Below the pieces are notes generated by a model that ran no database searches, was not told the DNA's origin, and saw only the letters and a program-made list of their open reading frames with translations. This document shows positions 2,022 through 6,331 of a stretch of DNA of 6,331 nucleotides, in pieces (the stretch's first letter is position 1; the number at the start of each line of letters is the position of its first letter). Source of the DNA: a bacterium (lineage in GTDB: Bacteria; AUK180); NCBI GenBank assembly GCA_030622125.1, contig JAUXGM010000130.1, positions 1 to 6,331 of the forward strand, in the 5' to 3' direction. A program made the position numbers and the translations under genes.

Positions 2022-3107
2022 ATGAAAAAAAAATTAATGCTAATTATTATGATTATGTTTTTTATTTTTCCAATAGATAATATATTTTCTTATTATGATG
2101 ATCCTACGGAAAGAATAGAAACGGAACGAATGTTGAAAACAGCAACAATTGATGAATTAATTCAAAGATTTGAAGAGGTAGGATATGCTACTACAAAAAA
2201 AATAATAATAGAAGAAATAGGTAAAAGAGAAAATATAAAAGCAATCTCATTTCTAAAAAAAATTATTAAAGAAAAAAATAAAAAATGTAAGAGGACTGAA
2301 CTCTCCATTGGTTTAACTTATGGTGAAACTGGCATTTCTGCTTGTGCCTATGTAATGATGAGAAAGATAGAAATGAAGGATTTAAATGAGGATGAAAAAT
2401 TAAAAATCTACGAAAAGATGATTAATGACAATTTTGAAAAAGGTGATAGATTTATAGCACATTATGCTATAGAAATATTATCAAATTGGAATGATAAAAA
2501 ACCACTTGCATTTTTAAGAAAACTTAGCAGAACTGAAAAGGAAAATTATAATACATTAAAATTACAGCTTGAATTATATAAATATGATAATGCGGGAAAG
2601 GCAAAAGTTCTTTGTAACTTTATGAAAGAACCAAACCATTCATCAATTGCTTATATAGCCGTAGGACAACTTTTAGACGAAACAGGGAGAGAGGGTTGGC
2701 AATATATTAAGGATCTTTTTATAGATATAGCCGATAAGAAAGTAATATTGAATAAAAATATTGAATATAATTATAGGATAGATGAAACAATTATTGTTAA
2801 TGTGGTTAGTTCTCTTGCAATCACAGGGAATGGAATGGATACCCTAAATGTAATAAAATCAAATCTCCATAAATTTGATAAGAAATTACAACGCAAGATA
2901 ATAAGATATGCAATGGGTGGAATTACTAATAATGCAGACGAACAAACCTGTTATGAATTAATTTCACTTGCAAAGAAATATGATGACAAATTAGTAAAAG
3001 AGACAATAAACAGAATAGTATGCAATAAAAGATTTCAGAAATTGGCTTGGGAAGAAGAGAAAAAGTTTGAAATGGAATTAAAAAAGAAGAATGGGGGTCA
3101 AAAATGA
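2022..3107 (+). CDS. Exported all-helical HEAT-like repeat protein
   Basis: The product has 361 residues. It starts with a typical Sec signal peptide: a Lys-rich n-region (MKKK), a hydrophobic core at residues 5-18, and a plausible cleavage after Ser23 in DNIFSYYDD. It has no lipobox cysteine, so it should be periplasmic or released rather than a lipoprotein. The mature part is rich in Lys, Glu, Ile and Leu and reads as successive amphipathic helix pairs, for example [65 protein letters not shown] and LQRKIIRYAMGGITNNADE. This pattern is typical of HEAT/PBS-lyase-type solenoids used as protein-binding scaffolds. I see no catalytic motif. The C-terminus is strongly basic (KKKNGGQK). The gene follows the Ig/metallopeptidase gene by 13 bases and overlaps the next gene by 4, so the three are probably co-transcribed. 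The solenoid assignment rests on the helical pattern only, and the function is unknown. Confidence 0.85.
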   Translation: MKKKLMLIIMIMFFIFPIDNIFSYYDDPTERIETERMLKTATIDELIQRFEEVGYATTKKIIIEEIGKRENIKAISFLKKIIKEKNKKCKRTELSIGLTYGETGISACAYVMMRKIEMKDLNEDEKLKIYEKMINDNFEKGDRFIAHYAIEILSNWNDKKPLAFLRKLSRTEKENYNTLKLQLELYKYDNAGKAKVLCNFMKEPNHSSIAYIAVGQLLDETGREGWQYIKDLFIDIADKKVILNKNIEYNYRIDETIIVNVVSSLAITGNGMDTLNVIKSNLHKFDKKLQRKIIRYAMGGITNNADEQTCYELISLAKKYDDKLVKETINRIVCNKRFQKLAWEEEKKFEMELKKKNGGQK

Positions 3108-4036
3108 ATAAAAAAATTATACAAATTATAACCTGCTTTTTAGTTATTTTTTTACTATTCGGGAATAATATTTATTCCTATTCCGTTGAAAGTAATTCAA
3201 AAGATAATAAGATTATACTAACGATTGAAAATAAGGATAATAAAAAGATGAAGAACCTAACACTCTTAATAAGTCATTATCCCGAATGGATAAATTTCAC
3301 TAAAAATGGTTTTTCAATAGGTGATATTGATAAAAATGAAAGTACGGATATAGAAATTAGTTTTAATGTTTCTCCGGAAGCAAAGAAAGGCGATAATGGT
3401 TCTGCTGCTTTTCTTGTTGCAAGAGGAAATAAGATACTATGGTCAAAAGGTGTTTATTTAAAGATAACAGAGCCTCCTTCCATTCCTGAGATTACGGCAA
3501 TTACACAGAAAGATCAGATTGTAAGTCTGAGTTGGAAAGCATCGCATAGCGAGAATGGAATATCGGGTTATAATGTTTATAGAAGTGAAATATCCGAAGG
3601 ACCTTATAATAAAATAGTAGGTTTAGTAAATGAAACCCATTATTATGACAATAATGTTGAAAATGGCAAGATATATTATTATGTTGTAACCGCTGTTGAT
3701 AACGAAGATTGTGAAAGTGCATATTCAAATGAAAAAAGTATAAGATTAACAAGAGCAAAAGGAAATCTGGATTCTGTAGTTACCTTTCCAAATCCATGGA
3801 AACGAGATTGCGGAAAAGATTATATGGTTTTTAGAAACTTAACACCAACGGCAACGATAAAGATTTTTAGTGTAAGCGGCAAATTAGTTAATAAAATAGA
3901 GGAAAAAGACGGAGATGGTGAAGCAAAATGGTATTTGGATAATATAAGTCAAAAGATTGTAAGTTCAGGAGTTTACCTATACAGTATTGAAGGAAATAAT
4001 TGTAAAAGGGAAGGGAAGATTGTAATAATAAAATAA
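3104..4036 (+). CDS. Secreted fibronectin type III protein with FlgD-like/T9SS-type C-terminal domain
   Basis: The product has 310 residues. Its ATG overlaps the upstream TGA (ATGA), and a GGGGGT ribosome site lies about 5 bases before it, indicating translational coupling. A Sec signal peptide covers residues 1 to ~25 (hydrophobic 5-19, cleavage near IYSYS). Residues ~26-120 form a beta-rich segment with a CARDB/NEW3-like look (IILTIENKDNKKMKNLTLLI, then STDIEISFNVSPEAKKGDNG). Residues ~124-217 are a clear fibronectin type III domain (VSLSWKAS, GYNVYRSE, YYYVVTAVD, SAYSNE). Residues ~222-310 match the C-terminal FlgD-like / type A sorting-domain pattern: FPNPW at 228-232, then TIKIFSVSGKLV, EAKW and SSGVYLYSIEG, ending in KIVIIK. 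In Bacteroidetes this class of domain directs type IX secretion and surface attachment. In other phyla the role is inferred. The protein is probably displayed or released at the surface together with its operon partners. No enzymatic motif is seen. Confidence 0.9.
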   Translation: MNKKIIQIITCFLVIFLLFGNNIYSYSVESNSKDNKIILTIENKDNKKMKNLTLLISHYPEWINFTKNGFSIGDIDKNESTDIEISFNVSPEAKKGDNGSAAFLVARGNKILWSKGVYLKITEPPSIPEITAITQKDQIVSLSWKASHSENGISGYNVYRSEISEGPYNKIVGLVNETHYYDNNVENGKIYYYVVTAVDNEDCESAYSNEKSIRLTRAKGNLDSVVTFPNPWKRDCGKDYMVFRNLTPTATIKIFSVSGKLVNKIEEKDGDGEAKWYLDNISQKIVSSGVYLYSIEGNNCKREGKIVIIK

Positions 4037-4051
4037 TGTAAATGGTAAAAT

Positions 4052-4087
4052 AAAAATACACAAAAGTTACTATTTTTTTGCATTTTT
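4052..4087 (+). terminator. Weak AU-rich terminator-like hairpin and U tract
   Basis: Sixteen bases after the third gene stops, AAAAATA (4052-4058) can pair with TATTTTT (4071-4077) around a 12-base loop. The 3' arm runs into a T-rich tract reaching 4087. The stem has only A-U pairs, so it would be weak. No G+C-rich intrinsic terminator occurs before the next gene. This is a candidate end of the secreted-protein operon only. Confidence 0.3.
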
Positions 4088-4151
4088 TAATTTGGGCTTG
4101 ACATTTCTCAATCTCTATTCCCGAAATTTCAAATTGCAAATCTTATTTCCG

Positions 4152-4169
4152 GATCAATTTCTTTTGATC
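4152..4169 (+). repeat. Inverted repeat GATCAA-N6-TTGATC, candidate activator site
   Basis: This is a perfect 6-bp dyad with a 6-base spacer. A further GATC follows at 4171-4174, and GGATCA/TGATCC (4151-4156 and 4170-4175) gives an alternative wider pairing. Its centre is about 138 bases before the predicted sigma-54 start, within the range where enhancer-binding proteins of the NtrC class usually bind. Binding is inferred; no known activator consensus was recognised. Confidence 0.45.
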
Positions 4170-4191
4170 TGATCCAAAACTGTTTAATTTT

Positions 4192-4212
4192 AGTGTCAAA
4201 TATTTTTACACT
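4192..4212 (+). repeat. Imperfect inverted repeat AGTGT-N-AAA-N3-TTT-N-ACACT, candidate activator site
   Basis: This is a 21-base palindrome with 8 matched pairs and one mismatched pair, centred at 4202, about 97 bases before the predicted sigma-54 start. Its centre is 41.5 bases from the GATCAA dyad centre, close to four helical turns, so both would face the same side of the DNA. It contains TGT-N11-ACA, one base longer than the NifA-type TGT-N10-ACA, so I do not call it a NifA site. Confidence 0.4.
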
Positions 4213-4235
4213 TCAAATTAGTTGAAAAGAATTAT

Positions 4236-4251
4236 TTGCGATATATTGCGA
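4236..4251 (+). repeat. Direct repeat TTGCGA with a 10-base period
   Basis: TTGCGA occurs at 4236-4241 and again at 4246-4251, one helical turn apart, shortly before the sigma-54 promoter. It may be a regulator or bending-protein site, or it may be chance in AT-rich DNA. Confidence 0.3.
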
Positions 4252-4272
4252 ACATATAAATATTTAAGAAAT

Positions 4273-4288
4273 TGGCACGATGGTTGCT
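4273..4288 (+). promoter_or_regulatory. Sigma-54 (RpoN) -24/-12 promoter of the small ORF-dnaK unit
   Basis: The sequence TGGCACG-ATGG-TTGCT matches the sigma-54 consensus TGGCACG-N4-TTGCW at every defined position. The diagnostic GG (4274-4275) and GC (4286-4287) have the required spacing. Transcription is expected to begin about 12 bases after the GC, near 4298-4300, giving a leader of roughly 47 bases before the ATG at 4346. By family knowledge such promoters are silent without an AAA+ enhancer-binding protein. None is encoded in this window. Confidence 0.85.
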
Positions 4289-4298
4289 ATATATGTAG

Positions 4299-4315
4299 TG
4301 GCTAAGGAAAAGCCA
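4299..4315 (+). promoter_or_regulatory. Short hairpin at the predicted 5' end of the sigma-54 transcript
   Basis: TGGCT (4299-4303) pairs perfectly with AGCCA (4311-4315) around the 7-base loop AAGGAAA. The stem begins almost exactly at the predicted +1. A 5'-terminal stem-loop can protect an mRNA from decay that starts at its 5' end; that role is inferred here. The loop's AAGGA is too far from the ATG at 4346 to act as its ribosome site. Confidence 0.45.
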
Positions 4316-4334
4316 AAAACGCTATTTAAATTAT

Positions 4335-4340
4335 AGGAGG
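4335..4340 (+). promoter_or_regulatory. Ribosome binding site of the 40-codon ORF
   Basis: A perfect AGGAGG lies 5 bases before the ATG at 4346. It is the main reason for treating the very short ORF that follows as translated. Confidence 0.75.
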
Positions 4341-4345
4341 CTATT

Positions 4346-4468
4346 ATGAGTATAAGTATAAGGCATGATAATTCAATTTTTGGTGGATTATCGCAATTAG
4401 ATGGTATATTAAAAATTGTTCTTAAAAAAGTTCAAAGAACAAAAGCAAAAAAAATTGAAATTAAATAA
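4346..4468 (+). CDS. Small basic 40-residue protein upstream of dnaK
   Basis: The ORF runs from ATG at 4346 to TAA at 4466-4468. It begins MSISIRHDNSIFGG and ends RTKAKKIEIK. The second half is strongly basic, with 9 Lys and 1 Arg among the last 18 residues, and contains a likely amphipathic helix (LDGILKIVLKKVQR). There is no signal peptide, cysteine pair or recognised domain. Support for translation is a perfect AGGAGG at ideal spacing, a consensus sigma-54 promoter immediately upstream, and dnaK only 13 bases after its stop, so it is the first cistron of that mRNA. It could be a small functional protein such as a DnaK partner or stress peptide, a leader peptide whose translation affects dnaK expression, or the remnant of a larger gene. 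I do not recognise it, and none of these roles is shown by the sequence. Confidence 0.6.
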   Translation: MSISIRHDNSIFGGLSQLDGILKIVLKKVQRTKAKKIEIK

Positions 4469-4469
4469 T

Positions 4470-4475
4470 AAGGAG
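4470..4475 (+). promoter_or_regulatory. Ribosome binding site of dnaK
   Basis: AAGGAG lies 6 bases before the ATG at 4482, in the 13-base gap after the small ORF's stop. The short gap would allow ribosomes ending the small ORF to restart on dnaK. Confidence 0.8.
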
Positions 4476-4481
4476 TAAAAG

Positions 4482-6331
4482 ATGAGCAAAAAGATTATCG
4501 GTATCGATTTAGGTACCACAAATTCCTGTGTTGCAATCATGGAAAATGGACAACCAAAGGTTATCCATAATGCTGAAGGTGGCAGAACTACCCCATCTAT
4601 CGTTGCTTTCAAAAAGGATGGTGAGATAGTTATTGGAGCACCGGCTAAAAATCAAGCGATCACAAATCCGGAAAATACAGTCTTTTCCGTTAAAAGATTG
4701 ATTGGTAGAAGTTATGACGAAATAGGCGAAGAGCTTAAAATATTACCGTACAAGGTTAAGAAAGGTAAATCACAAAATGTGGTCATAGAAGCCGCCGGCA
4801 AGAAATACACTCCACAGGAGATATCTGCAATGATACTTAAAGAGATGAAAAAGGTTGCAGAGGATTATTTGGGAGAAAAAGTAACGGATGCCGTTATAAC
4901 GGTTCCTGCCTATTTTAACGATTCACAAAGACAATCGACAAAAGATGCGGGAAAGATAGCGGGTCTGAATGTTTTAAGGATAATAAATGAACCTACTGCT
5001 GCAGCGCTTGCCTATGGAAGGGATAAAAAAAATGAGCAAAAAATAGCAGTATTTGATCTCGGTGGTGGTACTTTCGATATCTCCTTCCTTGAGATAAGTG
5101 AAGGCGTGTTTGAGGTTAAATCAACAAATGGTAATACACATCTTGGCGGTGATAATTTTGATATGAAAATTATTAATTACCTTGCCGATGAATTTAAAAA
5201 AGATCAGGGGATTGATCTTAGAGATGATGCCATTGCACTTCAGCGGTTAAAAGATGTTGCAGAAAAAGCAAAGATAGAACTTTCTTCAAAACTTGAAACC
5301 GAAATAAACCTACCGTTTATTACGGCAGATGCAAGCGGACCAAAACACTTACAAATTGCTATGACAAGAGCAAAATTAGAAAGTTTGGTTTCCGACTTAG
5401 TTGAAAAAACAGTTAGTCCTTGTAAAACGGCATTAAAAGATGCAAAAATGAGTAAATCGGATATTGATGTTATCTTACTTGTTGGTGGAATGACAAGGAT
5501 GCCGATCGTTCAAAAGAAAGTAGAGGAGATCTTTGGAAAAAAACCAAGCAAAGGTATCAATCCTGATGAGGCGGTAGCCATTGGTGCAGCGATTCAAGGT
5601 GCAATATTGGGAGGAGATAAATCCGTCGGTGATATTTTGCTCGTTGATGTTACACCTCTTTCTCTTGGAATTGAGACGCTTGGAAATGTGATGACAAAAC
5701 TTATTGATAAAAATACACCGATCCCTGTCAAAAAATCGGAAATATTTACAACTGCCGAGAATAATCAACCGGCTGTTGATATCCATGTCTTACAAGGTGA
5801 AAGACCCATGGCTTCTAATAACAAGACAATAGGTAGATTCCAATTAATGGGGATCCCGCCGGCACCAAGAGGCATGCCGCAGATAGAAGTTTCCTTTGAT
5901 ATTGATGCAAATGGCATAATGCATGTAACGGCAAAAGATAAAGCAACGGGTAAAGAGCAGAGTATAAAAATACAGGTTTCAAGCGGACTTTCCGATGAGG
6001 AAATAGAGAAAATGGTTAATGAAGCGAAGGAAAATGAAGAAGAAGATAATAAAAGAAAAGAACTTGTTGAAACTAAGAACAAAGCTGAGGGCTTGATCTA
6101 TCAAACAGAGAATATAATGAAAGAAATGAAAAAAAATGGTAAACTTGATGAAAAAGAGGAAAAGGAATTAAAGAAAAAGATGGATACACTACAAGAAAAA
6201 TCAAAGGGTGATAATAAAGAAGAAATAGAAAAAGCCATTGATGAACTTTCCGGTTTCTTTTCAAATATCTATCAGAAATATGGTCAGCAACAGCAACAAG
6301 AACAAGAAGTCGGAGGCCAAGCGGTCTTAGG
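4482..6331 (+). CDS. dnaK: Molecular chaperone DnaK (Hsp70), 3' partial
   Basis: 616 codons are visible, and only a short C-terminal tail is missing. DnaK is the cytoplasmic ATP-dependent Hsp70 that binds exposed hydrophobic peptides with DnaJ and GrpE. The ATPase domain (residues 1 to ~380) shows phosphate-1 [10 protein letters not shown] (from residue 7), [29 protein letters not shown], phosphate-2 DLGGGTFD (from 192) and the adenosine motif [10 protein letters not shown]. The hydrophobic linker DILLVD is at 384-389. The substrate domain follows ([43 protein letters not shown]), then the helical lid from about residue 505 and a Gln-rich start of the tail ([10 protein letters not shown]). 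Between KRLIG and YTPQEISA the protein has the roughly 22-residue insert of Gram-negative-type DnaKs, absent in Bacillus. The ATG at 4482 is fixed by AAGGAG and by the alignment of [13 protein letters not shown] with known starts. The gene appears to be transcribed from the sigma-54 promoter at 4273. No CIRCE element is present upstream. Confidence 0.98.

Follow-up and report, generated by a model that had tools for sequence, protein, structure and literature searches.

The window analysed here is a stretch of 6,331 nucleotides that makes up one complete contig of a 2.08 Mb metagenome-assembled genome (G000; 192 contigs, 96% complete) from the GTDB phylum of AUK180, which has been named Candidatus Uvuciota (PMC11382960). 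All of the results come from sequence inference on metagenome assemblies. The right end of the window is occupied by a dnaK gene (Hsp70; 4482-6331, forward strand) that runs off the contig, matches PF00012 with an E-value of 1.5e-262 and scores above the cut-off of the TIGR02350 equivalog model; no second dnaK-like gene was found in this genome. It is preceded on the same strand by a 40 aa ORF (4346-4468), and a terminator scan of the window detected no sense-strand terminator between the two. A gap of 309 bases separates this ORF from a cluster of three further ORFs (2-2008, 2022-3107 and 3104-4036) specifying secreted-looking proteins. These include a protein with an Ig-like domain and the motif HEFQH, and there are weak matches to a HEAT repeat and to a type IX-type sorting signal at the C-terminus.

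Within the 309-base gap, a pattern scan with the sigma-54 consensus TGGCACNNNNNTTGCW found TGGCACGATGGTTGCT at 4273-4288 on the forward strand with no mismatches, in agreement with the initial annotation, which had claimed a correctly oriented match at every defined base of the RpoN consensus. Only one further match was present in the window when up to two mismatches were allowed, and it carries two. The core pattern used for comparisons was TGGCAC-N5-TTGC, that is, the -24 GG and -12 GC elements at fixed spacing, and exact copies of it occur eight times in the 2.08 Mb genome versus none for a reversed control pattern. From its distance to the -12 element, transcription is predicted to start near 4299, giving a leader of about 47 bases (4299-4345) with a Shine-Dalgarno sequence, aggagg, at approximately 4335-4340. 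The possibility that this leader is an RNA thermometer was rejected, as it folds no better than shuffled sequences and shows no unusual structure, and an Rfam search of 3900-4700 returned only sub-threshold chance matches.

The phylum sample consisted of the seven available AUK180 genomes, which fall into two families and six genera: the family of the window (G000 itself with G001, G002, G003 and G004) and a sister family (G005 and G006). TGGCAC-N5-TTGC lies upstream of the dnaK operon in all seven, so that the alignment of relatives proposed in the initial annotation finds the GG and GC elements kept throughout both families and all six genera. Across the genera, identity is 100% at the ten fixed positions and at the preceding T, while it is 0.34-0.38 over the 40 upstream and 30 downstream bases and 0.35 in the N5 spacer. 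The site lies anywhere from 209 to 900 bases before dnaK, depending on how many hsp20 genes stand in between and on whether they are intact. As the seven genomes share ancestry, their agreement does not amount to seven independent events, and the evidential weight therefore rests on the invariant core compared with its diverged flanks. On the favored reading (see below), the phylum inherited this arrangement from its common ancestor.

A wider set of 111 dnaK upstream regions from all phyla, which total 163 kb and include some duplicated records, contains 13 with a sense match and none with an antisense match. Genomes of other phyla that have the site immediately before dnaK are represented by a Chitinispirillaceae contig (L024, at -79), a further genome (L025, at -69) and two Alistipes MAGs (L087 and L104). 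Strong sigma-54 matches do also occur within ORFs, several of them among the listed sites, and the site could in principle be a chance or relic match with dnaK driven by another promoter. We consider this highly improbable, since exactly the -24/-12 bases are kept in 7/7 genomes at varying distances from the gene, with no antisense counterparts, and a dyad conserved in position lies upstream of the site (see below).

The 40 aa ORF at 4346-4468 has no Pfam match and is missing the alpha-crystallin domain (PF00011), and it occupies the operon position of an intact hsp20 in relatives. In five of these, intact hsp20 is the first gene after the promoter, and dnaJ follows downstream of dnaK, the intact operon there being hsp20-dnaK-dnaJ. 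The C-terminal 22 aa of the ORF align to the Hsp20 C-terminus of the five relatives (0/2000 shuffles as good), and the N-terminal 18 aa show a weaker Hsp20 resemblance (23-29 of 2000 shuffles for G002 and G004). Judged by these alignments, the ORF arose from hsp20 by an internal deletion that keeps the frame and fuses the N-terminal ~18 aa to the C-terminal 22 aa; with only these two stubs left, it is better viewed as a remnant than as a functional Hsp20 member. A reading as a new small protein was rejected because it aligns as an hsp20 stub. The two-gene unit of the initial annotation thus stands as regards the ~47-base leader and the dnaK end, but its first gene is not an ordinary small gene, and the operon of the relatives extends into dnaJ.

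In G001 the in-frame deletion of hsp20 is a different one and is accompanied by a short insert, whereas the gene is intact in G004, of the same genus; no PF00011 match was found anywhere in either G000 or G001. Loss of hsp20 apparently occurred independently in these two lineages, which belong to two genera, with the promoter kept in both, although, given assembled sequence alone, the hsp20 deletion may be a mis-assembly. Both remnants retain the natural stop codon and have kept their spacing from dnaK, so that hsp20 and dnaK would stay translationally coupled, as if under selection, at least in these two cases. The leading position of intact hsp20 in five relatives and the lack of a sense-strand terminator before dnaK in the window raise the question of whether hsp20 was the original target of the promoter, with dnaK and dnaJ as read-through passengers and the promoter left to serve dnaK only after the deletion. 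This is unlikely in our view, as two lineages have lost hsp20 yet kept the promoter and a reading frame that runs to the natural stop, which argues for selection on the expression of dnaK itself.

A sigma-54 promoter before dnaK implies that expression must be switched on via an enhancer-binding protein. One RpoN, whose presence the initial annotation had proposed to check, is encoded in the genome, with a full sigma-54 DNA-binding domain (E 6.9e-52), together with about ten strong PF00158 (sigma-54 activator) proteins, of which the majority are of the NtrC type and carry a receiver domain. A candidate enhancer (UAS), the dyad TGTCAAATATTTTTACA at 4194-4210 (no strand assigned), lies 79 bases upstream of the sigma-54 site. 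The corresponding 17 bp motif, TGTMAA-N5-TTKACA, is found in all five genomes of the family at -70 to -79 of the site (-79 in the window, -70 in G001, G003 and G004, and both -70 and -109 in G002). It is absent within 150 bases of 41 other sigma-54-like sites (0/41), with a background of 0.006 per 150 bp; since the dyad was spotted by inspecting these upstream regions, the family-level statistics are post hoc, with the exception of the 41-site control. The motif was not found upstream of the site in the sister family (G005 and G006), where G006 has a different dyad, TGATAC-N5-GTATCA, within an inverted repeat starting at -132. The spacing of the dyad at 4194-4210 suits an activator site, and it is likely to be bound by the activator.

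A lead to the activator itself comes from an orthologous pair of genes for a histidine kinase and an NtrC-type regulator (HK-NtrC) found in G000 (contig C20), G002 (C55), G003 (C28) and G004 (C25). In G003 (L241, G003:C28:47335-49412) and G002 (L255, G002:C55), the dnaK-type dyad immediately precedes the histidine kinase, and the G003 pair and the dnaK operon are some 4-6 kb apart. However, no such dyad was found with the orthologues in G000 (L248), G001, G004, G005 and G006, and the pair is for this reason a weak lead to the possible dnaK activator and not an identification. No obvious chaperone gene was seen near the other dyad matches in the genome of the window.

Heat-shock genes of E. coli are transcribed mainly with sigma-32. 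The RpoH model TIGR02392 gave only sub-cut-off matches to sigma-70-family proteins in all seven AUK180 genomes, although this is a proteobacterial model and may miss a divergent heat-shock sigma-70. The seven dnaK upstream regions of the phylum contain no CIRCE element, which bears out an earlier remark that none is visible at dnaK, while CIRCE matches (0-3 mismatches) occur close to groEL, on its contig, in 7/7 genomes, and just upstream of groES in that of the window. The repressor gene hrcA was found in six of the seven, with a grpE-like ORF downstream of it in the genome of the window. Since CIRCE is near groEL and not dnaK, and HrcA is present, the two chaperone genes seem to have separate regulators.

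The initial annotation also saw no convincing sigma-70 promoter. This holds in that no conserved element stands out, but a weak sigma-70-like sequence, TTATTT-N17-TATAAA, can be picked out by eye at about 4235-4263 and could give basal expression. DnaK is usually needed constantly, and a tandem arrangement is conceivable in which a sigma-70-family promoter provides housekeeping dnaK and the sigma-54 promoter adds transcription on induction or during development; the hrcA-grpE-dnaK operon of Chlamydia is reported to work in this way. Such weak elements do exist in the gap, yet matches of this kind arise by chance in AT-rich DNA (38 found, 29 expected), and the flanks of the sigma-54 site are only ~35% identical across genera. 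Dual control is possible, at somewhat less than even odds.

We favor, with a probability of roughly 0.87, a reading in which the sigma-54 promoter at 4273-4288, with a dyad-bound activator, drives the hsp20-derived/dnaK(-dnaJ) operon, and groESL is under HrcA. RNA polymerase-sigma-54 would be held in a closed complex on the -24/-12 element until an AAA+ enhancer-binding protein on the dyad remodels it, probably under stress, and transcription would then begin near 4299; groESL would instead be repressed by HrcA at CIRCE. In the lineage of the window, hsp20 has been internally deleted with the promoter, start, stop and dnaK spacing retained. The reading starts from computed features (the conserved promoter match, rpoN and the activators, the dyad and where it lies, the restriction of CIRCE to the vicinity of groEL, and the hsp20 remnant), and from them we infer that the promoter is used, what the dyad does, that stress is the signal and which protein is the activator. 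A stricter version is tentative and rather doubtful: Hsp70 (with Hsp20 and Hsp40) would be turned on only via sigma-54 and one two-component activator dedicated to it, namely the HK-NtrC pair of G000:C20/G003:C28 and its orthologues, with GroESL released from HrcA. If this version is true, the two main folding machines answer different signals. The candidate dyad offers a testable activator site.

Sigma-54 control of dnaK is already known, and AUK180 is a well-supported further case. In Flavobacterium psychrophilum, dnaK has a mapped start and, as here, a -24/-12 sigma-54 motif, and groESL, grpE-dnaJ, htpG, clpB and lon also lie behind such motifs (PMC9723704); groESL thus shares the sigma-54 regulon there, whereas the genome of the window has CIRCE near groEL, and the hsp20-dnaK-dnaJ operon of the AUK180 relatives does not appear in the F. 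psychrophilum table (PMC9723704). For Bacteroidota and Planctomycetota, a survey from 2025 lists GroEL, IbpA, GroES, GrpE, DnaJ and DnaK as a cluster of predicted sigma-54 targets; its passages on this cluster mention neither the AUK180 phylum nor a positioned activator dyad (PMC12316311). For the hrcA-grpE-dnaK operon of Chlamydia trachomatis, tandem sigma-66/sigma-54 promoters have been reported (PMC8762339), while the start map of C. pneumoniae shows no sigma-54 promoter for protein genes (PMC3333780). The likeness is the reported sigma-54 promoter upstream of a dnaK operon, but in Chlamydia it stands in tandem with a sigma-66 promoter under HrcA and is linked to hrcA-grpE, whereas dnaK is here unlinked to hrcA-grpE and has no CIRCE. 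The parallel drawn earlier with E. coli ibpB, a small heat-shock gene transcribed by sigma-54, is found as a citation in PMC4370416; it matches the ancestral first gene, hsp20, but ibpB is separate from dnaK, while here an hsp20 remnant and dnaK share one operon. The initial proposal that dnaK is under sigma-54 is upheld by conservation and the presence of rpoN, with no CIRCE at dnaK and no clear RpoH found, but its description as unusual wiring is overstated, given F. psychrophilum (PMC9723704) and the predictions across Bacteroidota and Planctomycetota (PMC12316311). What is distinctive is the hsp20-dnaK-dnaJ operon and the apparent split from HrcA-controlled groESL. With this case, activator-dependent control of the main Hsp70 reaches into a candidate phylum that is uncultured, on comparative evidence that is unusually clean. 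It suggests that sigma-54 heat-shock wiring is commoner than sigma-32 and CIRCE models imply.

Elsewhere in the phylum, consensus sigma-54 sites precede pilin-type-, surface-protein- and cell-envelope-like genes and regulators, and those within ORFs are probably chance matches. One exact site in the genome of the window (L180, G000:C8) lies 28 bases before a predicted ORF that by eye resembles LpxC, an unusual target. A short palindromic element (TGTTCTG...CAGAACA / TGTTCTGATTCATGAACA), possibly a small mobile repeat, has inserted into the deleted hsp20 of G001 (L014) and into the leader of G004 (L015).
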